Below, one piece after another: positions 2,294 through 58,345 of a DNA stretch of 59,886 nucleotides; the first letter of the stretch is position 1; every line of letters begins with the position of its first letter. The position numbers and the translations under genes were made by a program. Below the pieces are notes generated by a model. It saw only the letters and a program-made list of their open reading frames with translations, had not been told where the DNA came from and did not search any database. Source of the stretch: Paludibacteraceae bacterium (GTDB lineage: Bacteria > Bacteroidota > Bacteroidia > Bacteroidales > Paludibacteraceae); NCBI GenBank assembly GCA_017446455.1, contig JAFSQV010000010.1, forward strand, positions 1 through 59,886, written 5' to 3'.

Positions 2294-2302
2294 TGGGTGA
2301 TA

Positions 2303-2372
2303 GTTGAGAGTTGAAAGTTGAAAGTTGAAAGAAGTTCGAAAGTCGAAAGTTGAAAGTTGAAACGTGAAACGG
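2303..2372 (+). repeat. 7-base tandem repeat spacer (GTTGAAA/GAAAGTT), ten units
   Basis: Ten consecutive 7-base units, from GTTGAGA at 2303 through several GTTGAAA and GAAAGTT to GAAACGG at 2372, fill the space between yajC and the next gene. The GTG start of that gene (2364-2366) lies inside the last two units, so the repeat forms the translation start region. Confidence 0.85.
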
Positions 2373-3275: not shown

Positions 3276-4408
3276 GAAAAATCCAAATGGTTGATCTGCA
3301 GACGCAGTATCAACGTATCAAAGCCGATATCGATGCCGGCATTCAAGAAGTCATCGAGTCCGCCGCATTCATCAAAGGACCAAAAGTGGCGGCTTTTCAG
3401 GAACACTTAGAGGCCTACACGGGTGCCAAACATGTGATACCCGTAGGTAATGGTACGGATGCGCTCCAGATAGCGCTGATGGGTCTGGGTCTGAAGCCCG
3501 GCGACGAAGTCATCACGCCGACCTTCACCTTCATCGCGACCGCGGAAGTGGTGGCGCTGCTGGGTCTGACGCCGGTAGTAGTGGATGTCGATTGGGAGAC
3601 GATGAACATGGACGTGGAGTCAGTCCGCCGCGCCATCACGCCGCGTACGAAAGCCATCGTGCCGGTGCACCTGTTCGGTCAATGCGCCGACATGCAGGCG
3701 CTGATGGAACTCGCGCGCGAGAAGCATATCTACGTGGTGGAGGACGCCTGCCAGGCTATCGGCGCACAGTTCACCTTCGCCAACGGCGAGACGAAGCAGG
3801 CCGGTACGATAGGCGACATAGGCTGCACGTCTTTCTTCCCCTCGAAGAACCTGGGTTGCTACGGCGACGGCGGCGCGATCTTCACCAACGACGATGCGCT
3901 GGCGGAGCGTATGCGGGCGATCGCCAACCACGGCTGCCACGTACGCTACCATCACGACGAGGTAGGCGTGAACAGTCGTCTGGACAGCATCCAGGCCGCT
4001 ATCCTCGATGCGAAGTTGCCGCACCTGAACGAGTATATCGCTGCGCGTCAACGCGCCGCGGCGTATTACGATAAAGCCTTTGCGGATTGCGAACAACTGC
4101 TTATTCCGGCGCATCAACCACATTCGACGCATGTATTCCACCAATACACACTGCGCGTAGTAGGCGCGGATAGAGATAAGCTGCGCGAGGGATTGGCCGC
4201 TGCCGGTATCCCGGCAATGATCTACTACCCCGTGCCGCTGCACCAGCAGAAAGCCTACCGCGACCCGCGCTATAAAGACGGCGACTTCCCCGTAGCAGAA
4301 CGCCTCGCAGCATGTGTACTGTCGCTGCCGATGCACACCGAACTCGACGAAGAACAGCTTGAGTACATTACTAGTAATGTCCTCAAATTGATGATTGATA
4401 ATTGCTAA
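3272..4408 (+). CDS. DegT/DnrJ/EryC1-family PLP aminotransferase
   Basis: 378 residues. The N-terminus MVDLQTQY, the PLP-handling GNGTDALQ, the EDACQAIGA motif and the lysine-bearing FFPSKNLGCYGDGG are diagnostic of the sugar aminotransferase branch (ArnB/WbpE/WecE-like), which makes amino sugars from nucleotide-linked keto sugars. The ATG at 3272 overlaps the ybbR stop. The C-terminal residues LMIDNC and the stop codon are encoded inside a 7-base repeat tract (4387-4421). No other sugar genes are adjacent, so the substrate cannot be given. Confidence 0.9.
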   Translation: MRKIQMVDLQTQYQRIKADIDAGIQEVIESAAFIKGPKVAAFQEHLEAYTGAKHVIPVGNGTDALQIALMGLGLKPGDEVITPTFTFIATAEVVALLGLTPVVVDVDWETMNMDVESVRRAITPRTKAIVPVHLFGQCADMQALMELAREKHIYVVEDACQAIGAQFTFANGETKQAGTIGDIGCTSFFPSKNLGCYGDGGAIFTNDDALAERMRAIANHGCHVRYHHDEVGVNSRLDSIQAAILDAKLPHLNEYIAARQRAAAYYDKAFADCEQLLIPAHQPHSTHVFHQYTLRVVGADRDKLREGLAAAGIPAMIYYPVPLHQQKAYRDPRYKDGDFPVAERLAACVLSLPMHTELDEEQLEYITSNVLKLMIDNC

Positions 4409-4421
4409 TTGATGATTTATG
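4387..4421 (+). repeat. 7-base tandem repeat (ATTGATG type) carrying the DegT stop and rpoN start
   Basis: Five units: ATTGATG, ATTGATA, ATTGCTA, ATTGATG, ATTTATG. The DegT stop TAA (4406-4408) spans units three and four, and the rpoN ATG (4419-4421) is the last three bases of unit five. Confidence 0.85.
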
Positions 4422-6562: not shown

Positions 6563-7544
6563 GATCCGTACATATATGCTCGTTCTGGCGATGCTGATGT
6601 CCCTCGGGATGTCGGCGCAGCGGCTGAGTGAGCAGGCGCGTATCTCGCTGCTGACCTGCACGCCGGGCGAGGAGCTCTACGCGCGCTACGGACACACCGC
6701 AATCCGTGTGCTGGACGAACAGAACGATATTGATATCGTATTCAATTACGGCATCTTTGATTTCAACACAGACCATTTCTACTGGAAATTCGTACGCGGA
6801 GAAACCTGGTACGAGTTAGGCGCGGCGCCGATGTGGTGGTTTATGCGCGAGTATGACGAAGAGCAACGGCCGGTGTACGAACAGGTGCTGAACCTCACGG
6901 CGGAGCAGACTAATATCTTGTGGGACAAACTGGTGGAGAACTATCAGCCGGAAAACCGCAAATACCTCTATAACTTCGTGTTCGACAACTGCGCCACGCG
7001 GCCGTACTGGCTAATCGCCAAGGCCTTGGGCGACACCATCACGTCGGAGTACACGGGTTACACGGGTCAGACCTACCGCACGTTCATTCGTCATTATACG
7101 GGCGGGCTATCTTGGGCCAACGCGGGTATCAATCTGCTCTTCGGACCGAAAGCCGACCGGCCGATGGCGTCCGAAGACCGTTTGTTCCTGCCCGAAGAAC
7201 TGATGCGGTATCTGCAGCAGGCGCAGTTGAGCGACGGCACGCCGATCGTGGCGCAGGGCGAGATAGGACCGTTTGACATCGCTAAGACACCCTGGTACGC
7301 TTCGTGGCCGCTGGGCTTAGCGCTCTATTTTGTTTTTGTATGCCTCATGAGCCTCTACGACCGCCAACGCGGCCGCTGGTCATGGTGGGTAGAACTCGTA
7401 GCAGGTGTACCCTATGGGTTGCTGTTGCTGATCGTGGTCTTTCTGACCTTTTTCTCCTGTCACCCGCTCGTTGGTTTCGGGTGGCGATTGATCATTATTC
7501 CTTTGACACATCTATGCGCAAGACTTATCTATATAGTACGTTGA
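6552..7544 (+). CDS. DUF4105 family protein, signal peptide plus C-terminal membrane helices
   Basis: 330 residues: N-terminal signal (MLVLAMLMSLGMSAQ), then the DUF4105 core with ISLLTCTPGEELYARYGHTA, FNYGIFDFN and FVFDNCATRP. The Cys and His positions recall papain-like (NlpC-type) families, but the function is not established. Three hydrophobic segments follow near the C-terminus (about 250-325). It overlaps the genes on both sides by 11 and 31 bases. Confidence 0.75.
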   Translation: MRNKIRTYMLVLAMLMSLGMSAQRLSEQARISLLTCTPGEELYARYGHTAIRVLDEQNDIDIVFNYGIFDFNTDHFYWKFVRGETWYELGAAPMWWFMREYDEEQRPVYEQVLNLTAEQTNILWDKLVENYQPENRKYLYNFVFDNCATRPYWLIAKALGDTITSEYTGYTGQTYRTFIRHYTGGLSWANAGINLLFGPKADRPMASEDRLFLPEELMRYLQQAQLSDGTPIVAQGEIGPFDIAKTPWYASWPLGLALYFVFVCLMSLYDRQRGRWSWWVELVAGVPYGLLLLIVVFLTFFSCHPLVGFGWRLIIIPLTHLCARLIYIVR

Positions 7545-8974
7545 TACTCAGCCTGCTGGCTGTTTGTTCGTTCGCCGCGCCGCGTCTGACGGTGGTGGCG
7601 GTAGTGGACGGTTTGACAACCGAGAACCTGGCGATGCTTCGTCCGTATTGGCAGCAGGGCGGTTTACGCACGCTGAGCGAAGAAGCCTACCAGACGACGG
7701 TGGCTTTCCCGCAACTCGTATATGGCGGCAATGAGACGACGGCGACGCTCGTGACCGGCGAGACACCCGATCGGCATGGTTACACCATGGACACCTATTT
7801 CTCGCGCCGCGACCGCCGCATCCATGCGATGCTGAAGGACGAAGAGATGCACGGCATCGGCACGAGCATCCATATAGGCCCGAAGGCGCTGCTGACGCGC
7901 ACCATCACCGACCGCATGCGTATCCTCTATCCGGCGGCGAAGATATACGCTATCGGTATCCAACCCGAGACGACGGTGCTGCTGGCAGGACACGCAGCCA
8001 ACGCGTGCTGTTGGATTGACGCCGCATCGCATAAATGGGTAGCGACGGCGGCTTACACCGAAGGACTGCCGACGGCAGCGTACGACTATAACAACGGCGG
8101 ACGGTTCGACATCCTGGCGGCGCACCAGTGGACACCGCGGATGGATATCCCGATGTACAACCACCCTACGGAGCAGGAACGTAAGAAGAGTTTCTCGTAT
8201 GCCGTGAAGGATATACTGACCAAGTCGCCGGAAGCCAACACACTCGTCATCGAACTGGCGCTGGCGCTGCAGAAAGAACAGAAACTGGGCACGGACGCTA
8301 CGCCGGACTTGCTGATGCTGCAGTTCAACACGCTGAGCCCGCTCGCGCAGTCGGACGCTATCGAGAGCGCCGAGCAGGAAGATATGTACCTGCGTCTGAA
8401 CCAAGACCTCGGCTACCTGATGGAGCAGTTGGATAAACGTATCGGTCGGGCGAACTACCAAGTGCTGGTAGTAGGTCGTCCGGTGTTAGGCACGAGCGCG
8501 CAGACGCTCAGCGACCTGCATATGCCGGTGCAGCAGTTTAATGTGGACCGCGCGGCAGCACTGACGGGCACGTACCTGATGGCGCTGTATGGCCATGAGC
8601 GATGGGTGGACGGCAGCTACGGTCAGTCGCTATACCTCAACCGCACGCTCATCGAGCAGAAACGCCTGAGTCTGGAGACCATCCAGCGGCAGGTGGCGAA
8701 TTTCCTGATGGACTTCGAGGGCATCCAGATTGCGATGCCGGGACACGAGGCGATGCTGCACCCGCTCCTGGGTTCCACGCTCTGCAAGCGCCATACGGGC
8801 GATGTGGTGTTCGTCCTCCAACCCGGATGGCAACTCATGCAAGACGAGCGGCACGCTATCGACCGCGTTATCGACGACAAACCGAAAGTGCCGCTGATGC
8901 TCTGGAGCGGGACGTTAAGGCCGATGCCGCAAAATCAGCTCACGGCAACCGATGTGGCTGATTTGATATTTTAG
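7514..8974 (+). CDS. Alkaline-phosphatase-superfamily protein, secreted, possibly inactive
   Basis: 486 residues from the ATG at 7514. The N-terminus MRKTYLYSTLILSLLAVCSFA is a signal peptide. Residues 25-85 match phosphodiesterase/PafA-type phosphatases: VVAVVDGL (first metal-ligand Asp), then GNETTATLVTGETPDRHGY, which contains the nucleophile region and the TPDRHG turn. The late metal sites are poor: where a family member has TADHG this one has VVGRPVLG, and where an Asp-x-x-x-His pair is expected it has LQFNTLSP. It may therefore be a pseudoenzyme. The start overlaps DUF4105 by 31 bases. Confidence 0.7.
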   Translation: MRKTYLYSTLILSLLAVCSFAAPRLTVVAVVDGLTTENLAMLRPYWQQGGLRTLSEEAYQTTVAFPQLVYGGNETTATLVTGETPDRHGYTMDTYFSRRDRRIHAMLKDEEMHGIGTSIHIGPKALLTRTITDRMRILYPAAKIYAIGIQPETTVLLAGHAANACCWIDAASHKWVATAAYTEGLPTAAYDYNNGGRFDILAAHQWTPRMDIPMYNHPTEQERKKSFSYAVKDILTKSPEANTLVIELALALQKEQKLGTDATPDLLMLQFNTLSPLAQSDAIESAEQEDMYLRLNQDLGYLMEQLDKRIGRANYQVLVVGRPVLGTSAQTLSDLHMPVQQFNVDRAAALTGTYLMALYGHERWVDGSYGQSLYLNRTLIEQKRLSLETIQRQVANFLMDFEGIQIAMPGHEAMLHPLLGSTLCKRHTGDVVFVLQPGWQLMQDERHAIDRVIDDKPKVPLMLWSGTLRPMPQNQLTATDVADLIF

Positions 8975-9002
8975 ATTGAAGATTTAAGATTTTAGAATTA
9001 TG
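8973..9002 (+). repeat. 7-base repeat spacer (AGATTGA/AGATTTA) with stop and start codons
   Basis: Units AGATTGA, AGATTTA, AGATTTT and AGAATTA run from 8973 to 9000. The upstream stop TAG (8972-8974) overlaps the beginning and the next ATG (9000-9002) overlaps the end. The terminal ATTTTAGAATTATG recurs exactly before the gene starting at 17826. Confidence 0.8.
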
Positions 9003-9416
9003 ATATTTCACGAGATTAAAGTAAACTACTCTCGCCAGACGGGCGAGGACAACCCGGGTAAGGCGAAAGAGACCTACCTGGTGGACGGAGCAGTGAGTTT
9101 TGCAGACGCAGAGAACTGCCTGATGGAGGAGATCAAACCTTTCATCTTCGGCGACTGCGAGGTGATGAGTTGCAAACGCAGCCAGTATTTCGAGGTATTC
9201 CCGAACGAAGGCGGTGCGTTCTGGTACAAAGCCCGCGTAGAAATGATCACCATCGACGGCGAGAAAGAGACGCGTAAGAACGTCGCGGTACTCGTTCAGG
9301 CGAACCTGCTCGACGATGCGGTCTTTGCGCTCAAGCAAGTGCTGAAATCGTACGACTGCGAGCTGATCTCGATCGCCAAGACCCCAATCATGGATATCCT
9401 GCACGCTACCCACTGA
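9000..9416 (+). CDS. DUF4494 family protein
   Basis: 138 residues, soluble, no signal peptide. It resembles the Bacteroidota-specific DUF4494 family: AKETYLVDGAVSFADAE, WYKARVEMITIDGEKETRK and a C-terminal ELISIAKTPIMDIL. The function is unknown. Its stop overlaps the first base of the next ATG (9416). Confidence 0.75.
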   Translation: MIFHEIKVNYSRQTGEDNPGKAKETYLVDGAVSFADAENCLMEEIKPFIFGDCEVMSCKRSQYFEVFPNEGGAFWYKARVEMITIDGEKETRKNVAVLVQANLLDDAVFALKQVLKSYDCELISIAKTPIMDILHATH

Positions 9417-10234
9417 TGCCCCTACAGTTCGACATACGAGCTATCCTGAAGAGCAAGGCGCCGAAAGCGCGTGTACCGGAGTTTGTCATTCGGTACCTGG
9501 AGCGTATCGCGCATATCAAGCAGATGAATGCGTTCCTGCGCAAATACCCGGATCTCAAAGGCTACGAGTTCATCGACCGGGTCATCCACGAAGAGTTAGG
9601 ATGTACGGCGTCGATAGAAGGTCTTGAGAATATTCCTGCGGCGGACAAACCCGTCATCTTCGTATCCAATCACCCGCTCGGAGGACTGGACGGCATGATC
9701 ATCGCGCAGATGATTCATGAGCACCGCCCGAGGCCGCTGAAGGTGATCGTGAACGAGATGCTGATGTACATGGAGCCAATCAATGCGCTCTGGGCACCGG
9801 TGAACAAAATGGGACGACTGAGTCGCGAGCAAGTGGAGGCGCAACAGAAGATGTGGGAGTCCGAGACCGACGTGCTTACCTTTCCGGCAGGCGCATGCAG
9901 CCGCCTGCAGCGGATCAACGGGAAATGGCAGATATGCGATCTGGAATGGCAGAAGAATTTTGTGCAGCGCGCCAAAGAGTACCAGCGCGACATTGTGCCG
10001 ATCTACTTCGAAGGCAAGAACAGCAAGTTCTTCTACACCCTCGCGTACCTACGCAAGAAACTGCATATCAAACTGAACATCGAGATGCTGTACCTCGTGG
10101 ACGAGATGTACGGTGCGCATGGCAAGCACTTCCAAGTGCACGTGCTGCCACCCATCCCCTACACCACGTTCGATAATAGCAAAACGCCCAAGCAGTGGGC
10201 ACAGGAGGTAAAGGGCAAAGTGTATAGTGTATAG
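9416..10234 (+). CDS. glsA: PlsC-type O-acyltransferase (GlsA-like, aminoacyl lipid synthesis)
   Basis: 272 residues. The acyltransferase block is SNHPLGGLDGM (His-x5-Asp, a variant of the usual HX4D), with the downstream FPAGACSR block where PlsC enzymes have FPEG. It precedes a GNAT/hemolysin-like N-acyltransferase. In Bacteroides thetaiotaomicron such a pair (GlsB N-acylates glycine, GlsA adds the second acyl chain) makes glycine lipids, so this assignment rests on family and neighbour. The last residues VYSV and the stop are read from a 7-base repeat. Confidence 0.75.
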   Translation: MPLQFDIRAILKSKAPKARVPEFVIRYLERIAHIKQMNAFLRKYPDLKGYEFIDRVIHEELGCTASIEGLENIPAADKPVIFVSNHPLGGLDGMIIAQMIHEHRPRPLKVIVNEMLMYMEPINALWAPVNKMGRLSREQVEAQQKMWESETDVLTFPAGACSRLQRINGKWQICDLEWQKNFVQRAKEYQRDIVPIYFEGKNSKFFYTLAYLRKKLHIKLNIEMLYLVDEMYGAHGKHFQVHVLPPIPYTTFDNSKTPKQWAQEVKGKVYSV

Positions 10235-10275
10235 TGTAAAGTGTAAAGTGTAAAAATTAAAGTTTAAAGGATATG
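10220..10275 (+). repeat. 7-base repeat spacer (GTGTATA/GTGTAAA), eight units
   Basis: GTGTATA twice, GTGTAAA three times, AATTAAA, GTTTAAA, then GGATATG whose last three bases are the ATG of the next gene (10273-10275). The upstream stop TAG (10232-10234) lies within the second and third units. Confidence 0.85.
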
Positions 10276-11205
10276 AAACCAATCATACCAGCTGTTGAGA
10301 CAAGTCTGTTACTTAAGGAGTTAGAAGGTCACCTGCTTCGTCCGTCCAACAAGGCGGACAACCTCATCTATGACATCACGGCGCACGAGTGCCCGAACGT
10401 GATGCGTGAGATAGCACGTCTGCGCGAGATCAGTTACCGCGATGGCGGCGGCGCGACAGGCAACGAGATGGACATCGATGAAATGGACACGATGGCCAAA
10501 CCCTACCATCAACTCATCGTCTGGGACCCCGAGCACCAACAGATCGTAGGCGGCTACCGCTATCTCATCGGCACGGACGCCGAGATACGCGACGGCCAAC
10601 CGTTCATCACCTCGGCGCACCTGTTCCACTACTCCGAGCGCTTCATCCGCGAGTACCTGCCGAACACGATTGAGTTCGGGCGCGCGTTCGTGCAACCGAT
10701 GTACCAGCAACGCGAGATGGGCGTGAAGGCGCTCTTTGCGCTCGATAACATATGGGACGGCATCGGCGCAGTGATGCACGACCATCCCGAGGTACGATGG
10801 ATGATCGGAAAAGTAACTATCTATCCGGCGTATAACCTCGCGGCGCGCGACCTGATATACGCGTACCTCGACCGCTATCATCGCGGCGAAGAAGGGCTCT
10901 TTGAACCCTATAACCCGCTGCCGATAAAAGAACTGAGTGCCTCGCCGTTCACAGGCGACGACCCGCAAGAGAACTATAAGATCCTGCAACATGCGGTACG
11001 CGAACAGGGCACGGTCATCCCGCCGATGTTCTCTGCGTACCTCAACATCACCAACGACCTGCAGTTCTTCGGGAATGCCGTCAACGACGAGTTGGCGAAC
11101 GTGTACGAGACGGGTATCATGGTCGATCTCGAGACCGTCTATCCGGAGAAGAAAGAACGTTATATCACGCCGTATATCCAATGGCTGGAGTCGCAGAACA
11201 AATAA
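10273..11205 (+). CDS. glsB: GNAT-family N-acyltransferase (GlsB-like, hemolysin-related)
   Basis: 310 residues, cytosolic. The acyltransferase core includes REISYRDGGGATGNEMDIDE, HQQIVGGYRYLIG and TIEFGRAFVQPMYQ, typical of the OlsB/GlsB family that N-acylates ornithine or glycine with 3-hydroxyacyl-ACP. With the preceding O-acyltransferase it probably makes an amino-acid-containing membrane lipid. The order here (O-acyl then N-acyl) is the reverse of the biochemical order. The next gene starts 25 bases before this one ends. Confidence 0.78.
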   Translation: MKPIIPAVETSLLLKELEGHLLRPSNKADNLIYDITAHECPNVMREIARLREISYRDGGGATGNEMDIDEMDTMAKPYHQLIVWDPEHQQIVGGYRYLIGTDAEIRDGQPFITSAHLFHYSERFIREYLPNTIEFGRAFVQPMYQQREMGVKALFALDNIWDGIGAVMHDHPEVRWMIGKVTIYPAYNLAARDLIYAYLDRYHRGEEGLFEPYNPLPIKELSASPFTGDDPQENYKILQHAVREQGTVIPPMFSAYLNITNDLQFFGNAVNDELANVYETGIMVDLETVYPEKKERYITPYIQWLESQNK

Positions 11206-12506
11206 GGAGCGTGCGTGCGCACATACCCGCGGGCGTGACGCTCGTGTGCGTGAGTAAGTTTCATCCCGTCGAGGCGATTCGCGAGGCGTATGCAGCCGGA
11301 GAGCGACACTTCGGCGAGAGCCGCGTGCAGGAACTACAGAAGAAAGTGCCTGCCCTGCCCGCCGACATCCACTGGCATTTCATCGGGCACCTGCAAACCA
11401 ACAAAGTGCGGGATCTGCTGAAGTTACGGCCGTACCTTATTCAGTCGGTGGACTCCGAGCGCCTGCTGCAAGCCATCAACGACGAAGCGGCCAAGCAAGG
11501 GTTTGTGCAAGACGTGCTGCTGGAGGTGCACGTAGCGAAAGAAGAGAGCAAAACAGGATTGACTCCTTCGGAGATTGAAGATTTAAGATTGCATATTGCA
11601 GATTTTCAGCACGTACGTGTTCGCGGTCTAATGACCATGGCCACCAACACCGACGAGGAAGTAGAGATACGGCGGTGCTTTAGCGAGGCGAAAGCGGTTC
11701 TGAGTAATCTGAGTATTCTGAATAGTCTGAGTAATCCGGTTTTGTCGATGGGGATGAGCGATGACTATCGCATTGCGATAGCGTGCGGTTCGACGATGGT
11801 GCGGATAGGCTCAACGATCTTTGGTGAGCGGTCGCGGAAGTTGCCGAAGGCGGTCTTTTTTGATCAGGACGGCGTGCTGTTTAACTCCATGCCGTACCAT
11901 GCGGCGTCTTGGGAATGGGCGATGCAGAAGCACGGGTTGCCGTTCACCAAGAACCAGACCTATCGCAATGAAGGTCGTACGGGTGCGTCGGTTATCAACG
12001 AGGCACATCGGCTGGTGCATGGCATGGATGCGTCGCCGGAGTTGATAGAAGCCGTATATGCCGATAAGTCGCAGCATTTCAATGAGTTAACAGGCGGCAA
12101 GCTGCCCGAACTGATACCGGGTATTCGCGAGGTATTGGCTTATCTCAAGAGCCGCGGCGTACAGTGCTGGGTGGTGACCGGTTCGGGTCAACGTTCGCTA
12201 CTCGATAACCTTCGCAATACCTTCCCCGACACTTTTACCGGCGTCATCTCGGCTTTCGACGTGCAGCATGGTAAACCCCATCCCGAACCGTATTTGAAGG
12301 CTTGGGAGCGTTGCGGTTTTGCGAAAAACGAATGTATGGTGGTAGAAAATGCACCGCTGGGTGTGCGGGCCGGCAAAGCGGCTGAACTCTTTACGGCTGC
12401 GGTCAACACCGGTATTCTGCCCGATGAGGCGCTGTGGGAAGAACACGCGGATGTGGTTTTCCCGAACATGCAGGCGCTGCTCGCGTGGTTACAGCAGTGT
12501 CAGTAA
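11181..12506 (+). CDS. Fusion of PLP-homeostasis protein (YggS/PLPBP) and a HAD phosphatase
   Basis: 441 residues in one open frame. Residues 1-217 are a complete YggS: the PLP lysine in VCVSKFHP (K26), FGESRVQEL, WHFIGHLQTNK, VRGLMTMA, and the usual end GSTMVRIGSTIFGER. Residues 224-441 are a HAD-IA (beta-phosphoglucomutase-like) phosphatase: FFDQDGVLFNS (D228, D230), VVTGSGQ, HGKPHPEPY and VVENAPLGVRAG. No stop separates them. A TTG at 11841 could be an internal start but has no visible ribosome site. PLPBP normally stands alone. The HAD part could act on PLP or a related phosphate, but that is inference. Two in-frame tandem repeats lie in the YggS half. The 3' end overlaps the convergent yjjG by 18 bases. 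Confidence 0.85.
   Translation: MAGVAEQIRSVRAHIPAGVTLVCVSKFHPVEAIREAYAAGERHFGESRVQELQKKVPALPADIHWHFIGHLQTNKVRDLLKLRPYLIQSVDSERLLQAINDEAAKQGFVQDVLLEVHVAKEESKTGLTPSEIEDLRLHIADFQHVRVRGLMTMATNTDEEVEIRRCFSEAKAVLSNLSILNSLSNPVLSMGMSDDYRIAIACGSTMVRIGSTIFGERSRKLPKAVFFDQDGVLFNSMPYHAASWEWAMQKHGLPFTKNQTYRNEGRTGASVINEAHRLVHGMDASPELIEAVYADKSQHFNELTGGKLPELIPGIREVLAYLKSRGVQCWVVTGSGQRSLLDNLRNTFPDTFTGVISAFDVQHGKPHPEPYLKAWERCGFAKNECMVVENAPLGVRAGKAAELFTAAVNTGILPDEALWEEHADVVFPNMQALLAWLQQCQ
11572..11606 (+). repeat. In-frame 7-base repeat inside the YggS domain
   Basis: AGATTGA, AGATTTA, AGATTGC, ATATTGC, AGATTTT. The first two units are identical to those of the spacer at 8973. It encodes part of EIEDLRLHIADF, so the frame is kept. 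Confidence 0.75.
11700..11738 (+). repeat. In-frame 9-base repeat inside the YggS domain
   Basis: Four units of about CTGAGTAAT/CTGAGTATT encode SNLSILNSLSNP. The same 9-mer type occurs in yjjG, dnaX and a small lipoprotein. Confidence 0.75.
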
Positions 12507-13178: not shown

Positions 13179-13189
13179 CAGTTAATTAC

Positions 13190-13211
13190 AAAAAAAGAGC
13201 CCATACGGCTC
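13190..13211 (-). terminator. Intrinsic terminator after tRNA-Pro
   Basis: On the minus strand GAGCC-GTATG-GGCTC (13197-13211) is followed by a run of seven T (13190-13196). It lies between the tRNA and yjjG, just before the yjjG start at 13178. A further G/C-rich stem lies at about 13230-13250. Confidence 0.75.
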
Positions 13212-13252
13212 GTCTCCTTTAGAGATTCGGGAGTCCTTGCGGACCCCCGATG

Positions 13253-13327
13253 TCGGGTAGGCGAGATTCGAACTCACGACCTCCTGCTCCCAAAGCAGGC
13301 ATTCTAACCGGGCTGAACTACTACCCG
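13253..13327 (-). tRNA. tRNA-Pro (anticodon TGG)
   Basis: The acceptor arms CGGGTAG and CTACCCG pair over 7 bp. The anticodon stem CCTGC/GCAGG holds the loop TTTGGGA, giving anticodon TGG with G37, as expected for proline. The T arm has GTTCGAATC. The discriminator is A and no CCA is encoded. Confidence 0.95.
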
Positions 13328-13354
13328 CAGCGCCTTCGTTCTCAAAAGCGGGTG

Positions 13355-13386
13355 CAAAGGTACTGCTTTTTTTTGAATTGTGCAAA
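13355..13386 (-). promoter_or_regulatory. Promoter of tRNA-Pro
   Basis: TTTG (13383-13386) and TACCTTTG (13355-13362) on the minus strand, 20 bases apart, about 28 bases before the mature tRNA 5' end. Confidence 0.75.
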
Positions 13387-13403
13387 TAAATTTGCGTTTT
13401 TTG

Positions 13404-17084: not shown

Positions 17085-17798
17085 ATGAAATATAATTATT
17101 CATACGAAATGAAGTACCAGGAGTCGGACGCGCACAAGAAAACGCGTCTGTACCACCTGGAGGAATACTTATTGGAAGTTGCCGGAAAGGCAGCCGATGA
17201 GTTGGGCTACGGTATCGCGGCCATGCACCCGAGAGGCTTAGGATGGATCTTGACGCGTCTGTCGCTGGAGGTGTATGAGTTGCCGAGACACAACGATATC
17301 GTGCGCTTTGAGACTTGGATTGAGTCGAATGCACACATGCTCAGCACGCGTGATTTCCGGCTCTATTTGGGCGACCGGCTGATCGGACAATGTAAGTCGG
17401 TGTGGGCGGTGTTGGACCTGGAGAAACGCGAACTGGTGAATATCTTCGACGAGCCGATCTTCAAAGACTGCGTAGACGGCGAGGTGATTGACTTGCCGCG
17501 CGTGCGGATGACGACCATCCCCGAACCGACATGCATCGTGCCGCATAAGATCGTCTATTCAGATATCGACTACAACGGCCACTGCAACAGTTGCCGCTAT
17601 TTGCAAGCCATGCTTGACGCGTACCTACCCGACTACTACGGCAAGAAAGTGCGCCTCGACATCAGTTACAGCAAAGAAGCTATGCTCGGCGAGTTGATGC
17701 AGATTCATTACCTTGTCTCCGAGGACGGCGTGCAGTATCAAATGAAGAACGAAGCGGGAGAGACGAGCAGCTCAGCAAAGCTGAGCATTGGTGATTGA
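17085..17798 (+). CDS. Acyl-ACP thioesterase (FatA/B family)
   Basis: 237 residues with two hot-dog domains. The second contains the catalytic-type motif DYNGHCNSCRYLQAMLD (Asn-His pair), the first WILTRLSLEV and ETWIES. These enzymes release free fatty acids from acyl carrier protein in the cytosol. The first ATG follows the peptidase stop by 3 bases. Its C-terminal residues are followed by a 7-base repeat spacer containing its stop. Confidence 0.88.
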   Translation: MKYNYSYEMKYQESDAHKKTRLYHLEEYLLEVAGKAADELGYGIAAMHPRGLGWILTRLSLEVYELPRHNDIVRFETWIESNAHMLSTRDFRLYLGDRLIGQCKSVWAVLDLEKRELVNIFDEPIFKDCVDGEVIDLPRVRMTTIPEPTCIVPHKIVYSDIDYNGHCNSCRYLQAMLDAYLPDYYGKKVRLDISYSKEAMLGELMQIHYLVSEDGVQYQMKNEAGETSSSAKLSIGD

Positions 17799-17828
17799 TG
17801 ATTGATGATTTGAAATTTTAGAATTATG
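17794..17828 (+). repeat. 7-base repeat spacer with stop and start codons
   Basis: ATTGATG, ATTGATG, ATTTGAA, ATTTTAG, AATTATG. The thioesterase stop TGA (17796-17798) is in the first unit and the next ATG (17826-17828) ends the last. Confidence 0.8.
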
Positions 17829-18311
17829 GAGATACAAGAAACTTCGACATTATTGAAACGTCCGGCAGAGTTAGAAGCAGACGTAGTGCGCTTCCAGAAC
17901 CAGAAAGATAAATGGATTGCCTTCGTAGGCCTGAAGGACGGTCGTCCGTACGAGATCTTCACGGGGCTGGCCGACGATGAAATGGGAATTGCGCTGCCGA
18001 AGAGCGTAGTGAAAGGAAAGATCCTGAAAGTTGTTCAACCGGACGGCACAAAGCGCTATGACTTCCAGTTCGTCAACACCCGCGGGTTTAAGACGACTGT
18101 CGAAGGACTGAGTTATAAGTTCGACCGCGAGTTCTGGAACTACGCCCGTCTGATCTCCGGCGTGCTGCGCTACGGCATGCCGATCGACCAGGTAGTGCAC
18201 ATGATCAGCGGTCTGCAAATGGACAACGACTCGATCAACTCTTGGACGACCGGTGTGGCGCGCGTGCTTAAGCGCTACGTGCCCGGAGCAGAGATCTCTG
18301 AAGACGAATAA
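17826..18311 (+). CDS. Stand-alone NrdJ (class II ribonucleotide reductase) C-terminal-domain protein
   Basis: 161 residues. KRPAELEADVVRFQNQKDKW, AFVGLKDGRPYEIFTGLADD, KTTVEGLSYKF and WNYARLISGVLRYGMPI match the region near the C-terminus of Bacteroidota B12-dependent ribonucleotide reductase, ending with SINSWTTGVARVLKRYVPG. The catalytic barrel and the terminal cysteine-rich zinc segment are absent, and no RNR gene is nearby. The start is fixed by the ATG ending a repeat spacer. The role is unknown; a regulator or accessory of RNR is possible. Confidence 0.7.
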   Translation: MEIQETSTLLKRPAELEADVVRFQNQKDKWIAFVGLKDGRPYEIFTGLADDEMGIALPKSVVKGKILKVVQPDGTKRYDFQFVNTRGFKTTVEGLSYKFDREFWNYARLISGVLRYGMPIDQVVHMISGLQMDNDSINSWTTGVARVLKRYVPGAEISEDE

Positions 18312-19870: not shown

Positions 19871-19894
19871 ACTTGAAAGGATTAAATCAATAAA

Positions 19895-19949
19895 TAAAAA
19901 AGCCTTGTGGCAACGCGTCTACACTTAGACACGTCTAAGGCCACAAAGC
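19895..19949 (-). terminator. Terminator after the HU/small ribosomal protein operon
   Basis: On the minus strand GCTTTGTGGC (19940-19949) pairs with GCCACAAGGC (19902-19911), with an inner TTAGAC/GTCTAA stem, followed by six T. Confidence 0.7.
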
Positions 19950-19964
19950 TACATGCACCGTCAT

Positions 19965-20054
19965 TTACTTATGCTTATGACGATTCTTACGTAAGCGTTT
20001 TTTGCGCTTATGCGTAGACATCTTATGTCTCTTATGCTTCTTTCCGTTCGGCAT
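19965..20054 (-). CDS. 29-residue AURKAIP1/COX24 (mS38/bS22-like) basic ribosomal protein
   Basis: Reverse-strand ATG at 20054 gives 29 residues starting MPNGKKHKRHKM and ending RLRKNRHKHK, then TAA. The Lys/Arg/His-only composition and the THKRKKRLRKNRHK core match the tiny AURKAIP1/COX24-domain proteins of Bacteroidota, related to mitochondrial mS38 and mycobacterial bS22 at the small-subunit decoding region. It lies 49 bases downstream of HU on the same strand and is followed by a terminator. It is too short for most gene callers. Confidence 0.85.
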   Translation of the reverse strand: MPNGKKHKRHKMSTHKRKKRLRKNRHKHK

Positions 20055-20103
20055 AATGAATAAAATTTAAACTGTTAGTATATATTTTTTCTTATTTTTC
20101 AAT

Positions 20104-22364: not shown

Positions 22365-22528
22365 GGGATATTATCCCGCATGAGGTCTCTTTTATGGCTG
22401 TTAGAGGTAGTTGCCTCCTTTCCACGGGGTCTCCACGTGGTCCCAAAGGGTGCTCAATGGGTGCTGAAAGGGTGATCAAAGGCTGCTCAGCCCAAGATCA
22501 CCCCAACGTCATTCCAATATGCTCCCGA
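22365..22528. repeat. 11-base-period tandem array with flanking hairpins
   Basis: From about 22430 to 22528, nine contiguous 11-base units keep phase: TCTCCACGTGG, TCCCAAAGGGT, GCTCAATGGGT, GCTGAAAGGGT, GATCAAAGGCT, GCTCAGCCCAA, GATCACCCCAA, CGTCATTCCAA, TATGCTCCCGA. A hairpin GCGGGA-TATTA-TCCCGC (about 22365-22381) lies at the left. No credible gene is seen from 22303 to 22573. A related array lies at 48753-48862. Confidence 0.8.
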
Positions 22529-38673: not shown

Positions 38674-41592
38674 TTAGAGTTGCGCACCTAACATGTTATA
38701 CGCCTTGCCGTCGCGGACGATGACTACTTGTCCGTCGCGGAAGATCTTTTGTACTTTCTGAGCCTCAGCAGCGGTGTTCTCTACACCTTGTCCGGGATCT
38801 CCGGCTACTTTACCGAAACCACCGCGGGCGTTTGCCTTGCGGATCGTTGCTCCGGGAAGCATAACCTCTGCATTCAGTTCTTTTCCTGTTACAATCGAAC
38901 AAGACCCATCATCTAATAACTCTACCAGATAGATACCTGTTTCTTCGTAACCTTCTGTCTCTACAACAGCCTGCTTTGCATCCGCCTCAGCGGTGCTAGC
39001 CCAAGCGCCGAGGGTGTAGCCCATCGTATAGGTAGCGGCGTCGTCTGCTGTGAGGATGGTCTCCATCGGCTTCTCGTCATTGCCGAGCGCGAAGGTGATG
39101 TTATTGCTTGCCGGCGAAACGACGTTGCCGTCCTTATCCATGGAGTTGAACTCACCGAGTTTCTCCGGCAATTTGTTCATCGCACCCACGTGCCAGCGCT
39201 TGATTTGGTCTTTCGGCGCCGAAGCATCTTTGTAGAAGTTCAGCGCACCGTTCGAGTCATCGAGGACGGTATTGAGGAAGACGCATTTCGGCGCGTTGTT
39301 CCAACTACGGCCGAAACTCATAACTGGTAGCGTGCCTGCGATGTTCTCGGAATACTTCACGCGGCAGGACTCGAAGACATAGCCCTTGTCGCTCGCATCC
39401 GCGTTGCTGGCAGTGATGGCATTCGCACCGCCGCCGCTCGCATTTCGTTGCTCGCCGACGAGGACGTTGTTTTTGAAATAGACGCTACCATCGCCGCAGA
39501 TAAAGTCCACAGTTCCGTGAATCTCGCAGTCCTCGAAATATTTGAGTCCGCCGACCTTGTTGCTATAGTAGGTATCCTGATTCGAAAGCAACTTGACGTT
39601 CTTGCAGATTGTCTGCGTGCCTTTGTCTTGCAGACACACGCCGCGACCGTTATTGGTGGCAGCCAGCGCAGCGAAATAGTCCATGTTATTCCACAGCGTC
39701 AAGTCCTGCAGATAGGTGTTGGTCGCCGTGATGAGGAGCGTAGCAGTTGTCGAGATACCCTCTTTGCGATAGTCCGGTGTATTCTTGATAATCGTCCCTT
39801 CCATCGACTGTCCGATGATGGAGATATTATTCTTGCTAATGGTGGTCAGGCATGTCTCGCCGAGGTCATAGATACCGTTCGGCAGGAAGATCTTCTCGCC
39901 TGCTGCCATCGATTCGAGTGCTAAGATCAAACCCGCACCGTCGTTCGGAGCGATCTCATAGTAGCCGTACTCGTCTTTCTTCGGCAATTCGGCGATGTTA
40001 TAAACCTTCAGCGAGTGGATATAATCCGTACCCGTGAAATGGAATGTCAGGGTCGTTGCTTCTCCGGTATATTGGATGCTCTGCAACTCGCCGTCCGGCG
40101 TCACCTCTTTCTCTGTGGTCAGTTTGCCTACGACGTTTCCTGCGGCGTCACGCAGCTCGGTGTCGCCGGTGTGCGAGTATTTGCATACACCTACTACGAG
40201 CAGTGCATTGCCGGCAACTTTCACGCCGAGCGTGTTGCCATTACCGAAAGTCCAGCCGTGTTGCGCATCTTTGTAACTGCCTCCATTGAAGACGAGCACT
40301 TCGTGATCCTCAGGATAGAAGGATTTCTGACGGAGGTCATAATTGAAGATCTTGCCCATCGCTGCCTCTTCTATCTCGGTGGCTACCGCATAGAGACTGA
40401 GGTCTTCGTTGACAGCCGTGCCTTCCGCCACTTTGAGCGAGGTAGGCGTTGTGCCGTCAAACCAGCCGCGGAACGCGCAGCCTGCAGGCACCGTCACGTC
40501 TGACGCACTATATTTATATACGAGTGCCGAACTGCCGTCGATGATCTCGCTGCCGATGAGTGTCTTGCCATCGGTGTCGAAATAGCGTACTTCTACCTGT
40601 GGCACGAAGTCGCATGCTTCAGCGAACATATACGGCATATATCCGTTCACGGTGAAACTCAGTTCAGCCGCTTCCTCAACGTTATACAGCCATGTGACGT
40701 ATTTCGTGTAGCCGTTCCCTACTCCGCTGTTGTCACAACCCACCTTGTTGTCAATGGTCGTGAGGTCGGCGCCGTTCTTCTTGACGATGATGCTTTTACC
40801 GTATGTACATCCACCCAGCGTGAATTTCACCGGACCGTCAACTTGTACGATGATGGTTCCGCCTTGGAGTCCGTGTTGCGTATCTTTGAAGACGAGATCG
40901 CTCAGCGTCACATTAGCCGGTTTTTCTGCAGGCTCCACCCATGTCGGTTCTTCCGAACGGAAGTCCACTTTGAAGTTCGTGAACGTACGTACTTCCTCTT
41001 CGCCGTCGATGGTACCGTTGATCTGTACATCACTCAGGCAGAAGAGTTTGCCACTGTCAAAGCCCGACACGTAGAATCGCAGACTGACGGTCTGCCCGGC
41101 TGTAGCGGTAATCTCATGTACGTGATGCAGAGCCGGCGAACCGGTAGTGTTGTTATCACGCAGCAGGTCGTCTTTCAACACCTCTACCGGAGTTGCCTCT
41201 ACGCCATCCACAGTATAAGACCAGTGATAGGAGGCATTATCCGTACCTTGCTTGATAGCATCGTACTCCACGCTTGTGAGGGTAAAAGTAACACCTTTCT
41301 TCATCTTCACGGAGTATTCAATCATAGCGGATTCTACCACACCGGGTTTCTTGGCGGAGGGATTGAAAGTCGCCATCGTCTCACCGGGATTAGCGGAAAA
41401 ATTATTACGCGAGCCTTCTGTCAGCCCCGTACCTACTTTGCGTTTGTTCTCTTTTATACCGTCCGCGGCGTCCGAGGTTACCACGGCATTGTCCGTACCG
41501 TCCGCCCATTTGATAGTAGCGGGCACGTTGTCAAAGGACCAGGCGTTGATGCTCAACAAAGCACCTAACGCGAAAAGAATTGTCTTTTTCAT
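38674..41592 (-). CDS. Large secreted CE8 pectinesterase with N-terminal beta modules
   Basis: 972 residues, signal peptide MKKTILFALGALLSINAWS. About 30-520 holds repeated beta-sandwich/carbohydrate-binding-like modules (VFKDTQHGLQGGTI and VFNGGSYKDAQHGW are similar). About 560-850 is the CE8 pectin methylesterase helix: SNQDTYYSNKVGG, GTVDFICGDG (catalytic Asp) and FGRSWNN (conserved Arg-x-Trp). The C-terminal KIFRDGQVVIVRDGKAYN matches the tail of the BspA-like protein at 23075. De-esterifies pectin outside the cell. Its start overlaps the upstream pectinesterase by 4 bases. Confidence 0.88.
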   Translation of the reverse strand: MKKTILFALGALLSINAWSFDNVPATIKWADGTDNAVVTSDAADGIKENKRKVGTGLTEGSRNNFSANPGETMATFNPSAKKPGVVESAMIEYSVKMKKGVTFTLTSVEYDAIKQGTDNASYHWSYTVDGVEATPVEVLKDDLLRDNNTTGSPALHHVHEITATAGQTVSLRFYVSGFDSGKLFCLSDVQINGTIDGEEEVRTFTNFKVDFRSEEPTWVEPAEKPANVTLSDLVFKDTQHGLQGGTIIVQVDGPVKFTLGGCTYGKSIIVKKNGADLTTIDNKVGCDNSGVGNGYTKYVTWLYNVEEAAELSFTVNGYMPYMFAEACDFVPQVEVRYFDTDGKTLIGSEIIDGSSALVYKYSASDVTVPAGCAFRGWFDGTTPTSLKVAEGTAVNEDLSLYAVATEIEEAAMGKIFNYDLRQKSFYPEDHEVLVFNGGSYKDAQHGWTFGNGNTLGVKVAGNALLVVGVCKYSHTGDTELRDAAGNVVGKLTTEKEVTPDGELQSIQYTGEATTLTFHFTGTDYIHSLKVYNIAELPKKDEYGYYEIAPNDGAGLILALESMAAGEKIFLPNGIYDLGETCLTTISKNNISIIGQSMEGTIIKNTPDYRKEGISTTATLLITATNTYLQDLTLWNNMDYFAALAATNNGRGVCLQDKGTQTICKNVKLLSNQDTYYSNKVGGLKYFEDCEIHGTVDFICGDGSVYFKNNVLVGEQRNASGGGANAITASNADASDKGYVFESCRVKYSENIAGTLPVMSFGRSWNNAPKCVFLNTVLDDSNGALNFYKDASAPKDQIKRWHVGAMNKLPEKLGEFNSMDKDGNVVSPASNNITFALGNDEKPMETILTADDAATYTMGYTLGAWASTAEADAKQAVVETEGYEETGIYLVELLDDGSCSIVTGKELNAEVMLPGATIRKANARGGFGKVAGDPGQGVENTAAEAQKVQKIFRDGQVVIVRDGKAYNMLGAQL

Positions 41593-43097
41593 TGTTTATA
41601 AGTATTTGTTTGTATGATTTTCGGTATTTCTTGTGCCCACGGACCGAGGACGGCGTCGAGCGTATAGGCCTTCGCCTCTTTGGCCGTGAGAATGGTGTTC
41701 ATCGGACGTTCCTGCGTGCGGAAATGGAAGACCACCTCGTGCTTCTTAGGCGAGATAATCCTTCCTTTCACATCCCGGGTCTTGTATTCCCCGAAGCGGG
41801 CGGGCACGACGCGCATGCCGGGCAGCGTCCAGCGTTGGTTGTTCTTGCCGTCCGTCAGGCTAAACTCGCCGGCGCTGAAGTCGAGCGTCGTACGCAGGAA
41901 CGCACATTTTGGATAGTTGTTCCAACTGCGGCCGAGACTCACGATCGGGCATTCGCTCTTTATCGTGCAACGCTCGAACACATAGCCCTTGTCCGTCTCT
42001 GCGGCATTGCTCGCGGTGATATAATCCGCACCTTCATTACCCTGCCCTCGCCGTTCACAGTACAGCAGGCAGCGGAGGAAATAGACATTTCCGTTTCCGC
42101 AGATATAATCGACCGTGCCGTGGATCTCGCAGTCCTCGAAGTATTTCAGTCCGCCGACCTTGTCGCTATAGTACGTGTCCTGGTGCGAGAGCAGGCGCAC
42201 ATGTTTGCATACGGTTTTCGTGCCTTGGTCCCATAGACAGACGGCGCGACCGTTGTTGTTGGCGTAGTAGTCGAGCGCATTCTCTATCGTCAGGTTGCTC
42301 AGCACGGTGCCCTCGACATCGTCGGCGATGCGCAGCGTCGCGGTCTTACTGATGGACTCCAGCCGGTAGTCCGGCGCATTGCGGATGATCGTACCCTCCA
42401 TCGACTCGCCGATGATGCTTATCCCGTCGGCTTCGATCGCCGTGAGCGTCAGTCCGCCGAGGTCGTAGATGCCGTTCGGCAGGTAGATGGTCTTATGTCC
42501 GCTCGCATTCGCGTCCGCCAGCGCGCGCAAGAAAAAACGGGCGTTGTCCGAGAGCGTGTCGATATTCACCTCCTGGATATACGCCTTCTCTTCCCCTTTG
42601 TCCGCGTCACAGGGGGATGGCACGAAGGTCTCGCCCTCCACAAATTCGATGCGCTGCAGCACCGCCTCCATGTTCAGCAGGCGGGTGATGAAGATATTGT
42701 TCTGCTCCGCCGTGAGCGGGATACACTGCGTACCCGACTTGCGGATCTCGCAGGTCACGCCGATGCGCGTCTCTTCCATCGGTGTGTCCCCACTCCAGGT
42801 ATGTACCTGCAGCGAGGCGCGGTTGATACCGCTGCGCGGACCGAAGGTCAACTTCAGCACACCCGCCACCGGGGCTTTGGTGAACCAGCACCAACCGGAG
42901 CTGTTCAGCTTGATACCTTTCAAGCCGTTCTTCACTCCCTCGGCATCATTGACGATGCCGCCGAACCGCAGTCCGCGGTCCGGGTTGTTCTGCGGCGGTG
43001 CGTCCGTGTAGTCCCAGAGCAGGTCATTCTCCCCTGCCCACAGGACCACACTCAGCATCACCGCCGATAGGATGGTAAAGAAACGTTCTTTCAACAT
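41589..43097 (-). CDS. Second secreted CE8 pectinesterase
   Basis: 502 residues, signal peptide MLKERFFTILSAVMLSVVLWA. One N-terminal beta module, then CE8 at about 180-450 with HQDTYYSDKVGG, GTVDYICGNG and LGRSWNN. LKYFEDCEIHGTVD is shared with the neighbour, showing gene duplication; the C-terminal tail motif is missing. The first codons (Met-Leu-Lys) lie in a CTTTCAA-type 7-base repeat at 43088-43120. Confidence 0.88.
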   Translation of the reverse strand: MLKERFFTILSAVMLSVVLWAGENDLLWDYTDAPPQNNPDRGLRFGGIVNDAEGVKNGLKGIKLNSSGWCWFTKAPVAGVLKLTFGPRSGINRASLQVHTWSGDTPMEETRIGVTCEIRKSGTQCIPLTAEQNNIFITRLLNMEAVLQRIEFVEGETFVPSPCDADKGEEKAYIQEVNIDTLSDNARFFLRALADANASGHKTIYLPNGIYDLGGLTLTAIEADGISIIGESMEGTIIRNAPDYRLESISKTATLRIADDVEGTVLSNLTIENALDYYANNNGRAVCLWDQGTKTVCKHVRLLSHQDTYYSDKVGGLKYFEDCEIHGTVDYICGNGNVYFLRCLLYCERRGQGNEGADYITASNAAETDKGYVFERCTIKSECPIVSLGRSWNNYPKCAFLRTTLDFSAGEFSLTDGKNNQRWTLPGMRVVPARFGEYKTRDVKGRIISPKKHEVVFHFRTQERPMNTILTAKEAKAYTLDAVLGPWAQEIPKIIQTNTYKQ

Positions 43098-43120
43098 TAA
43101 ACGTTAAACTTTCAACTTTA
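43088..43120 (-). repeat. 7-base repeat spacer (CTTTCAA) over the pectinesterase start
   Basis: CTTTCAA, CATTAAA, CGTTAAA, CTTTCAA, CTTTA; the start codon complement (43095-43097) is inside the second unit. It is the complement of the repeat at 2303. Confidence 0.75.
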
Positions 43121-43396
43121 TCACGCGTTTTTGCGGCGCTCGAGTTGGGACTCGAGGGCATTGAGGCAAGCGTCGAGTGCTTCCTCGAAGCTGTCGGCGG
43201 TCTTCTCTGCGAAGAGGCCGGCGATGCGCACTTTTACTTCTTTGTTAGCGTTCGTCTGCGGCTTGATGACCGACATGCGGATCTCCACTTTGTCGTCGCC
43301 GTTGAGGTGGCGCTCAAAACGATTCATTTTCTTCTCAATAAACTGCTCCAGTTTCTCCGCCATTTCAAAATTGACGGCATTGATCGTTACGTTCAT
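43121..43396 (-). CDS. hpf: Ribosome hibernation-promoting factor, short form (HPF/YfiA)
   Basis: 91 residues from ATG 43396, downstream of the promoter. MNVTINAVNFEMAEKLEQFIEK, RFERHLNGDDKVEI, and the basic tail with SFEEALDACLNALESQLERRK fit the short HPF fold that binds the 30S decoding site during stationary phase. The longer upstream frame precedes the promoter and is not used. Confidence 0.9.
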   Translation of the reverse strand: MNVTINAVNFEMAEKLEQFIEKKMNRFERHLNGDDKVEIRMSVIKPQTNANKEVKVRIAGLFAEKTADSFEEALDACLNALESQLERRKNA

Positions 43397-43442
43397 ACTA
43401 CAAATATTTAAAAGGTTAAACGATAATATCTCTTTGCGGGTG

Positions 43443-43473
43443 CAAAAGTACAAAAAAAAAATGACATACACAA
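43443..43473 (-). promoter_or_regulatory. Promoter of hpf
   Basis: ACAA complement (TTGT, 43470-43473), 19 bases, TACTTTTG (43443-43450) on the minus strand. Confidence 0.65.
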
Positions 43474-43516
43474 GTGTGTATGTATTTTTCATGCATTTTT
43501 ATGGTATATTTTATGC

Positions 43517-48752: not shown

Positions 48753-48862
48753 GGGTGCAGCGAGGGTGTAGTCGGGGTGCAAAATACCCTGAAAGATCCC
48801 CGAAAACCTCGCACTTACCGCGTACTTATGACGCACTTATCTCGCACTTATCACGCACTAAA
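48753..48862. repeat. 11-base-period tandem array, ten units
   Basis: Ten in-phase units: GGGTGCAGCGA, GGGTGTAGTCG, GGGTGCAAAAT, ACCCTGAAAGA, TCCCCGAAAAC, CTCGCACTTAC, CGCGTACTTAT, GACGCACTTAT, CTCGCACTTAT, CACGCACTAAA. The first three share GGGTG with the array at 22430-22528; the last five share CGCACTTA. A 98-codon frame runs across it but reflects the repeat. Confidence 0.8.
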
Positions 48863-50562: not shown

Positions 50563-50580
50563 TTTTCACTTTTCATTTCT
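50481..50580 (-). repeat. 7-base repeats at the lipoprotein/porin junction and in the signal peptide
   Basis: Two tracts: 50481-50512 (AAAGTGA/AAGGTGA units, coding signal-peptide residues) and about 50546-50580 (minus strand AGAAATG, AAAAGTG, AAAAATG, AAAATTG), which holds the lipoprotein stop and the porin ATG (50560-50562). Confidence 0.75.
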
Positions 50581-50812: not shown

Positions 50813-50845
50813 ATCGGTATATCGATATTCCGGCATTCCGACCGA

Positions 50846-52296: not shown

Positions 52297-52325
52297 TATT
52301 TTGATAAAATGATTAAATTCGAGTG

Positions 52326-52357
52326 CAAAGATACAGTATTTTTTGGATATATGCAAA
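52326..52357 (-). promoter_or_regulatory. Promoter of lrp-trpS operon
   Basis: TTTG (52354-52357), 20 bases, TATCTTTG (52326-52333), minus strand, overlapping the divergent methyltransferase promoter. Confidence 0.75.
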
Positions 52358-52373: not shown

Positions 52374-52392
52374 CCGCAAATTTTGTAACATT

Positions 52393-58319: not shown

Positions 58320-58345
58320 GATTTCAAAATTCAAATTTTAGATTT

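Follow-up and report, generated by a model that had tools for sequence, protein, structure and literature searches.

Seven-base tandem arrays in gene spacers and protein loops of a Paludibacteraceae genus

Why are some gene spacers in a Paludibacteraceae genome built from 7-base tandem repeats whose unit differs from one junction to the next, and do these tracts serve the genes that they separate? The question was raised by a 59,886-nucleotide stretch of DNA, here called the window, which is contig C33 of a 1.84 Mb genome (100 contigs, 80% complete; hereafter the source genome). The window has a GC content of 52.6%, and the nearest named relatives of the source genome are rumen Bacteroidales and Paludibacteraceae assemblies. 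An earlier note had described eight gene junctions with 7-base repeats. Their outline was recognisable at all eight, and Tandem Repeats Finder (TRF, minimum score 30), run on the window, returned period-7 rows at seven of them (2298-2362, 4387-4421, 8960-9004, 10208-10269, 17787-17810, 43088-43120 and 50550-50578); none was listed at 58319-58348. The description of the repeats as perfect or near-perfect was too generous, as five of the seven TRF rows had 71-82% matches. Beyond the eight, further arrays were found at 11572-11604 and 52741-52772, both in genes, and at 50480-50512 and 57415-57446. The sites in the window were as follows.

2302-2371, plus strand: GTTGAAA-type array between the YajC gene (1961-2293) and the YbbR-like gene (GTG start at 2364)
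4387-4421, plus strand: ATTGATR array spanning the end of a DegT-type aminotransferase gene (3287-4408) and the ATG of the next gene (4419)
8973-9002, plus strand: AGATTNA array between a phosphodiesterase-like gene (7514-8974) and a DUF4494 gene (9000-9416)
10219-10275, plus strand: GTGTAWA array between an acyltransferase gene (9416-10234, stop inside the array) and a GNAT gene (10273-11205)
11572-11604, plus strand: AGATTGA array inside a YggS-HAD fusion gene (11181/11211-12506), matched to the related genome G163
17787-17828, plus strand: ATTGATG array and AATTTTAGAATTATG between an acyl-ACP thioesterase gene (17085-17798) and a TSCPD-domain gene (17826-18311)
43088-43120, minus strand: heptamer tract between an S30AE-domain gene (43121-43492) and a pectinesterase-like gene (41589-43097), both on the minus strand
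50480-50512, minus strand: GAAAGGT array in the first codons of the minus-strand gene starting at 50562
50550-50578, minus strand: TTTCAYT array containing the stop of 50573-50836 and the start of 49198-50562, both on the minus strand
52741-52772, plus strand: CTTTCAA array inside an O-methyltransferase gene (52309-53034)
58319-58348, plus strand: weak period-7 tract between UDP-sugar dehydrogenase-like genes (57564-58319 and 58346-59584), with no TRF row

As had been claimed, stop and/or start codons lie inside the tracts, for example the GTG at 2364, 4406-4408 together with 4419, 10232-10234, 43095-43097 and 50560-50562; the ATG of the pectinesterase-like gene falls within the tract at 43088-43120. 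The identical stretch reported before two genes was also present: ATTTTAGAATTATG occurs exactly twice in the window, at 8989 and 17815. By eye, KRDVL or KKDIL follows the GTG start of the YbbR-like gene in four relatives. The gene starting at 4419 is presumably sigma-54 (RpoN-like). Scanning viral contigs with the DUF4494 protein turned up no relative.

Strength and extent of the period-7 signal

Gene starts and spacers were taken from a home-made gene caller, by which 88% of the bases in the first sample were coding. Its starts were wrong at least at 2433 and 50439, and in several relatives at the position matching 2433, so that distances from array to start are blurred. The source genome was sampled as 40 stretches plus the window (about 0.65 of 1.84 Mb), 20 of the stretches (L031-L050) coming from contigs picked for repeat matches and L051-L070 being picked by contig number. 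As the first 452 kb represented contigs chosen by repeat matches, 194 kb of other contigs were added as an unselected sample. Relatives were represented by 71 loci, all around one operon (that of the rpoN-like gene) and with near relatives included, which makes their arrays partly non-independent.

In the spacers of the first 452 kb, 22 lag-7 arrays were observed compared to 0.14 in 50 dinucleotide shuffles, which bears out the 7-base periodicity. Lags of 5, 6, 8 and 10 gave no arrays in the same spacers, lag 9 gave three and lag 11 gave nine. The same-direction spacers of the relatives contained 62 arrays of period 7 versus 13 of period 8 and eight of period 11; spacers have an excess of 7-base units relative to other unit lengths. 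The tracts are real, and the original observation stands for the most part. Arrays of a second class, of period 11 and in many cases GC-rich, were seen at 48810-48859 and 22444-22489 of the window as well as in the source genome and the relatives' loci; these occur in all kinds of spacer and are nearly absent from genes.

The unselected 194 kb of the source genome had nine arrays in 14.0 kb of same-direction spacers and four in 162 kb of coding DNA, while its divergent and convergent spacers (6.1 kb) had no array. In the relatives' 71 loci there were 62 arrays in 84.8 kb of same-direction spacers, 55 in 1,225 kb of coding DNA, two in 22.8 kb of divergent and one in 9.1 kb of convergent spacers. 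Per 100 kb, this amounts to 64 arrays (source genome, unselected, nine arrays) and 73 arrays (relatives, 62 arrays) in same-direction spacers, 2.5 versus 4.5 in coding DNA and 0 versus 9 in divergent spacers. The per-base density in same-direction spacers was 11 to 26 times that in coding DNA. When 20-kb stretches of 20 other genomes of the family were surveyed, 17 had no arrays and the remaining three had four, two and one; a 50-kb stretch of E. coli also had no period-7 arrays. The feature thus belongs mainly to this genus, and a few other members of the family have it as outliers. Arrays were likewise missing from two stretches, with 50-53% GC, of a related genus.

At a lower threshold, 246 arrays were collected: 115 in same-direction spacers, 116 in predicted genes, six in divergent spacers, three in convergent spacers and six at stretch ends. 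They comprise 93 canonical units, and the commonest of these were found both in genes and in spacers, so the unit is not set by the translation context.

Arrays in genes, turnover and unit repertoires

The arrays within predicted genes, nearly half of the 246, were mostly far from gene starts. At a higher threshold there were 79 coding arrays, 17 of them no more than 60 nt from a gene end (seven at the start, 10 at the stop). The remainder, deeper in genes, read without in-frame stops and encoded peptides such as LSTFNFQ. The array in the O-methyltransferase gene codes for LSTLNFQLST ahead of FDLVFIDADK, and its site in G163 is occupied by unrelated sequence of similar length. An alignment of 56 YggS-HAD fusion sequences, that of the window among them, contained 24 arrays of many different units, and 23 of these fell within three poorly conserved blocks; the window's own array (11572-11604), in a loop that carries other units in relatives, was below the threshold of this count. 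The 15-column conservation means of the array blocks were 0.06 to 0.36, with one edge block at 0.53, and most other blocks in the part examined had values of 0.57 to 0.85; one further block of low conservation (0.35) had no array. Such a placement in poorly conserved loops cannot have to do with translation starts.

Alignment of orthologous sites was carried out for three pairs of genomes, with aligned identities of 92.4% (source genome and G163), 86.4% (source genome and G171) and 90.4% (G172 and G166). The YajC/YbbR junction has GTTGAAA units in the source genome, GTGTAAA-type units in G163 and ATTGATT-type units in G171. At the 4387 junction, the ATTGATR array is common to the source genome and G171, and G163 has a GTTAAAN-type tract. 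The unit was kept in G163 at the 8973 junction, where the array is 14 bases longer, and at the 10220 junction, where it is 14 bases shorter; at these two sites of the window, unit number thus changes between close relatives, in line with the earlier note. At the 17787-17828 junction G163 carries a shorter GTGAATTA tract. The 43088-43120 tract is absent in G163 and replaced by other units in G171, the arrays at 50480-50512 and 50550-50578 are unchanged in G163, and the 58319-58348 tract is absent in both G163 and G066. When all arrays with a recognised orthologous site were counted by a single rule, the same unit was kept in 4/9 cases from the source genome to G163 and 6/10 in the reverse direction, in 2/4 from the source genome to G171 and 1/7 in reverse, and in 6/14 from G172 to G166 and 7/12 in reverse; these counts omit arrays for which no such site was found (eight of the source genome and six of G163; four and three for the source genome and G171; 19 of G172 and 11 of G166). 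One junction had arrays, with many different units, in 13 of 63 relatives, and six of the ten junctions examined had one array or none.

Non-coding indels of at least 5 bases were multiples of 7 in 8/22 cases between the source genome and G163, and in 2/13 and 3/16 cases in the other two comparisons. A clean spectrum of 7n indels was therefore rejected, since the modest signal of the first pair was not seen in the other two. In G163 and G166, a short repeat around GGTCTAACAG occupies sites at which the compared genome has heptamer arrays (opposite own_C52:12179 and G172_C39:35986); it was also seen in the G066 spacer at window position 50440. At one intragenic place (G172_C39:36857), an ACCAACG array of period 7 in G172 corresponds, by eye, to a period-8 tract, ACCNTCAA, on contig C35 of G166. 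Two other spacers of the window also drew attention. The tRNA-like spacer at 13179-13403 lies, by eye, on the opposite strand in the source genome and G163 relative to G171, G196 and G066, as if this tRNA-bearing spacer had been inverted between these genomes. The conserved spacer at 19871-20103 contains a very basic small minus-strand reading frame (MPNGKKHKRHKMSTHKRKKRLRKNRHKHK, by eye), reminiscent of the AURKAIP1/COX24-type small proteins of Bacteroidetes.

Individual units were searched for in 178 genomes of the genus, one genome per species. Three copies of ACCAACG with at most one mismatch gave 60 matches in G075, 55 in G172 and seven in its relative G166; the unit was present in 18 of the 178 genomes and absent from 160, the source genome included, and its mirror control was zero in the rows of the table. 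These matches are overlapping windows, so that the arrays are fewer, but they are spread across many contigs. For TTACTGA, searched in 21 genomes, G171 had 28 matches, G196 had 10, G163 and G100 had one each, and the other 17, including the source genome, had none. GTTGAAA was widespread (89 of 178 genomes); since this unit equals its own mirror image, the search had no valid mirror control. AGTCAAT, which was searched solely as a mirror control, had 11 matches in G145 and at most one in any other of the 178 genomes. All nine matches of GGTGTAA in the source genome and all 10 in G163 (overlapping windows, representing approximately six places in each) were on the forward strand of their contigs, even though the orientation of contigs ought to be arbitrary.

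Among the 71 loci, 16 of 283 pairs of arrays within a species had a common unit versus 266 of 12,261 pairs between species (permutation p 0.0015). This sharing of units inside genomes fits spread by copying, as the earlier note had suggested. Pairwise comparison of the flanks of 87 arrays of the source genome revealed no common flank. A larger mobile element was rejected, as the flank matches (not each inspected) resembled neighbouring arrays or promoter-like divergent spacers. A miniature element of REPIN or MITE type fits no better, given these flanks and the varying array ends. Defined array ends were also considered, since some boundaries appeared by eye to be shared (GTTGAAAGAAG, GGACTAACGAC), but the full list had mixed ends. 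The order of variants common to unrelated arrays is only suggestive, given the few variable positions.

Stops, starts and possible explanations

Among spacers of 15-300 nt, an array was present in 103/716 same-direction, 2/102 divergent (p 1e-4) and 3/50 convergent spacers; the last, tried as a neutral yardstick, were dropped as such at p 0.13. Within equal spacer-length classes, the contrast between same-direction and divergent spacers was not significant (p 0.37, 0.053 and 0.30). For the 115 same-direction spacer arrays, the distance from stop to array peaked at -2 and the distance from array to start was broad; the constant position relative to the ATG claimed earlier was not confirmed. In spacers of at least 60 nt (n=48), the array was closer to the stop in 35 and to the start in 13. 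The strand richer in stop codons was the sense strand in 22:4 arrays touching the stop, 18:3 arrays 1-9 nt after it and 10:10 arrays at least 10 nt away. Near the stop, a mean of 2.25 to 2.89 frames were closed in the sense orientation versus 0.79 to 1.32 in the antisense orientation. Arrays overrunning the stop were richer in sense stops by 26:0, in part by definition. This pattern fits either the survival of the stop-bearing orientation beside stops or the seeding of arrays from the stop codon. Near starts, A-rich sense arrays were preferred (11:3, p 0.057).

The arrays could be kept as an unstructured, A/T-rich landing zone for ribosomes in a lineage that lacks Shine-Dalgarno pairing. The premise is supported: Shine-Dalgarno sequences were present at 11.6% of 465 ATG starts of the source genome versus 11.0% at 30 nt upstream, compared to 51% versus 11% in the E. 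coli stretch (n=37), and the lack of an excess agrees with published abstracts on Bacteroidia. Starts with an array were also A/T-richer in -20..-1 (0.80 versus 0.60-0.72) and less structured on average, with a mean folding energy over -30..+20 of -3.16 kcal/mol (n=87) against array-free values of -5.93 (gap of at least 25, 400 sampled), -3.84 (gap 0-24, n=309) and -5.39 (overlap, 400 sampled). GATTTTAGAWTTATG, with at most one mismatch, ended at a predicted gene start in 14 of 22 places in five genomes, so a preference for positions before starts may play some part. When orthologues with and without an array were paired by junction, however, structure differed at one of three usable junctions (p 0.0012) and did not differ at the other two (p 0.25 and 0.51); a fourth (p 0.68) was unusable on account of wrong starts, 34 of 61 sequences being usable after correction and two of them having an array. 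Predicted genes contain nearly half of the arrays, spacer arrays adjoin the stop rather than the start (35 of 48 nearer the stop in spacers of at least 60 nt), related genomes carry a different array or none at the same start, and the GC-rich stretches of the other genus have no arrays. The start-region role put forward in the earlier note is partly supported, but not as a general cause. A benefit at translation starts is possible; it does not explain the whole, and we regard the landing zone as an unlikely reason for the arrays.

The bias towards sense stops near the upstream gene (22:4 and 18:3, against 10:10 farther away) and the larger number of frames closed in sense would also be expected of insurance, that is, of arrays selected to close all three frames and so keep readthrough from reaching the next gene. 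An equal bias would, however, arise if arrays were seeded from the stop codon itself, the 26:0 count of overrunning arrays is partly definitional, only 103 of 716 same-direction spacers have an array, and arrays in genes and genome-specific units are left unexplained, which makes such insurance very unlikely. If the arrays were multivalent sites bound by a protein on RNA or DNA, and the unit it prefers shifted from species to species, this would account for the many dispersed places at which a genome carries one unit and for the sense bias near genes; the idea was proposed for TAACTGA repeats, with S1, Csp and Csr proteins named as candidates (MacGregor 2015, PMC4679880, in the part available). 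It sits poorly with 93 canonical units in 246 arrays, nearly half of them in genes, and with units that differ at one junction between related species, and we give it little probability. An assembly artefact of metagenome bins might be suspected because repeats pose problems for assemblers, most of the named relatives bear the label of a metagenome assembly or an uncultured isolate, and the source genome is in 100 contigs. Against this, the same unit and length were recovered in the separate assemblies of the source genome and G163 (50487, 50550 and 57430), the arrays are short, and the single-contig family genome L221 has two in 20 kb; an artefact is extremely improbable.

The observed period, sites, turnover between genomes, genome-specific repertoires and orientation pattern are what an explanation has to cover. 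The one that we favour, at a confidence barely above even, is a fast, lineage-specific process in which arrays arise in 7-base steps, spread between genome places, settle in weakly constrained sites and are edited by selection. Slippage would expand the tandem arrays in steps of seven bases, and template switching between arrays would copy their sequence from one place to another. The arrays would settle in short same-operon spacers and non-conserved protein loops, where constraint is presumably weak, and near-neutrality would be the default on which selection then acts. Beside an upstream stop, survival would mostly be limited to arrays oriented with stop codons in the reading strand, and three stop-bearing units would close every frame because 7 is not a multiple of 3. 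In genes only stop-free phases would survive, and A/T-rich units near start codons would be tolerated or mildly favoured. The presence of one unit at many scattered places is more than slippage alone explains, and pure neutrality fails to predict the 11:3 preference for A-rich sense arrays, the junction with p 0.0012 and the start-linked GATTTTAGAWTTATG (14/22). In a bolder version, the genus would possess enzymes that actively write heptamer arrays into tolerant sites or copy them there, with a species-dependent repertoire and with spacers and loops being continually rewritten; this is in our view distinctly unlikely.

The favoured process separates the site from its content: a junction or loop persists as a slot whose heptamer array is exchanged, often at 5 to 8% divergence of the flanks. 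It makes testable why a step of 7 is favoured in bacteria, how a short unit reaches many genome places although no mobile element is visible, and how enzymes gain new coding sequence via loops. It also advises caution, in that pre-start spacer sequence in such lineages should not be taken for regulatory motifs.

Comparison with known repeat systems

Searches of a literature with few subscription papers listed no report of heptamer arrays in this genus; Paludibacter is mentioned by MacGregor. In the accessible text of that work, TAACTGA heptamer direct repeats are mostly intergenic, near the start codons of a genome poor in Shine-Dalgarno sites, and occur in five Bacteroidetes including Paludibacter propionicigenes, in some with other heptamers alongside; two close Cyanothece strains differ by indels in 7-nt steps (MacGregor 2015, PMC4679880). 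The present arrays are likewise heptamer direct repeats and lie mostly between genes. As far as that text describes it, however, the TAACTGA system has one dominant unit with near variants rarely repeated, whereas here there are many units, which differ at one site between relatives. Three copies of TAACTGA with at most one mismatch were found in 23 of the 178 genomes, with at most three matches in each and none in the source genome.

Heptanucleotides are the most abundant class of simple sequence repeat in most repeat-rich prokaryotic genomes, and slippage tied to a 7-nt polymerase contact has been proposed (Mrazek 2007, as summarised in MacGregor 2015, PMC4679880). The excess of unit length 7 is shared with the present arrays; site-wise change of unit and per-genome repertoires are absent from MacGregor's summary. 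The GGGNATC quadruplex repeats of Xanthomonas and Nostoc, in the part of the report available, are G-rich, (Rehm 2015, PMC4692102), whereas the present arrays are A/T-rich, with the unit conserved in about half of them between close genomes. The G fraction of the spacer arrays was 0.21, and there was no GGGNATC-type unit among the 60 most frequent units listed. The location of GGGNATC repeats between aligned genes and their rarity in divergent spacers are common to both (here 103/716 versus 2/102, with length classes not significant).

The archaeal Borg tandem repeats, like the arrays described here, are fast-evolving, A-enriched and genome-specific, with recent independent arrays in spacers and genes (Schoelmerich 2023, PMC9879509). 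Those studied, in the portion of the paper at hand, were perfect, formed regions of at least 50 nt and in genes always had a unit length divisible by three (Schoelmerich 2023, PMC9879509). Unlike them, the present units have seven bases in genes too (79 arrays), are imperfect or mixed, and one unit recurs at many sites of a genome. The TAACTGA, GGGNATC and Borg repeats are known relatives of the present arrays, each differing from them in at least one defining feature.
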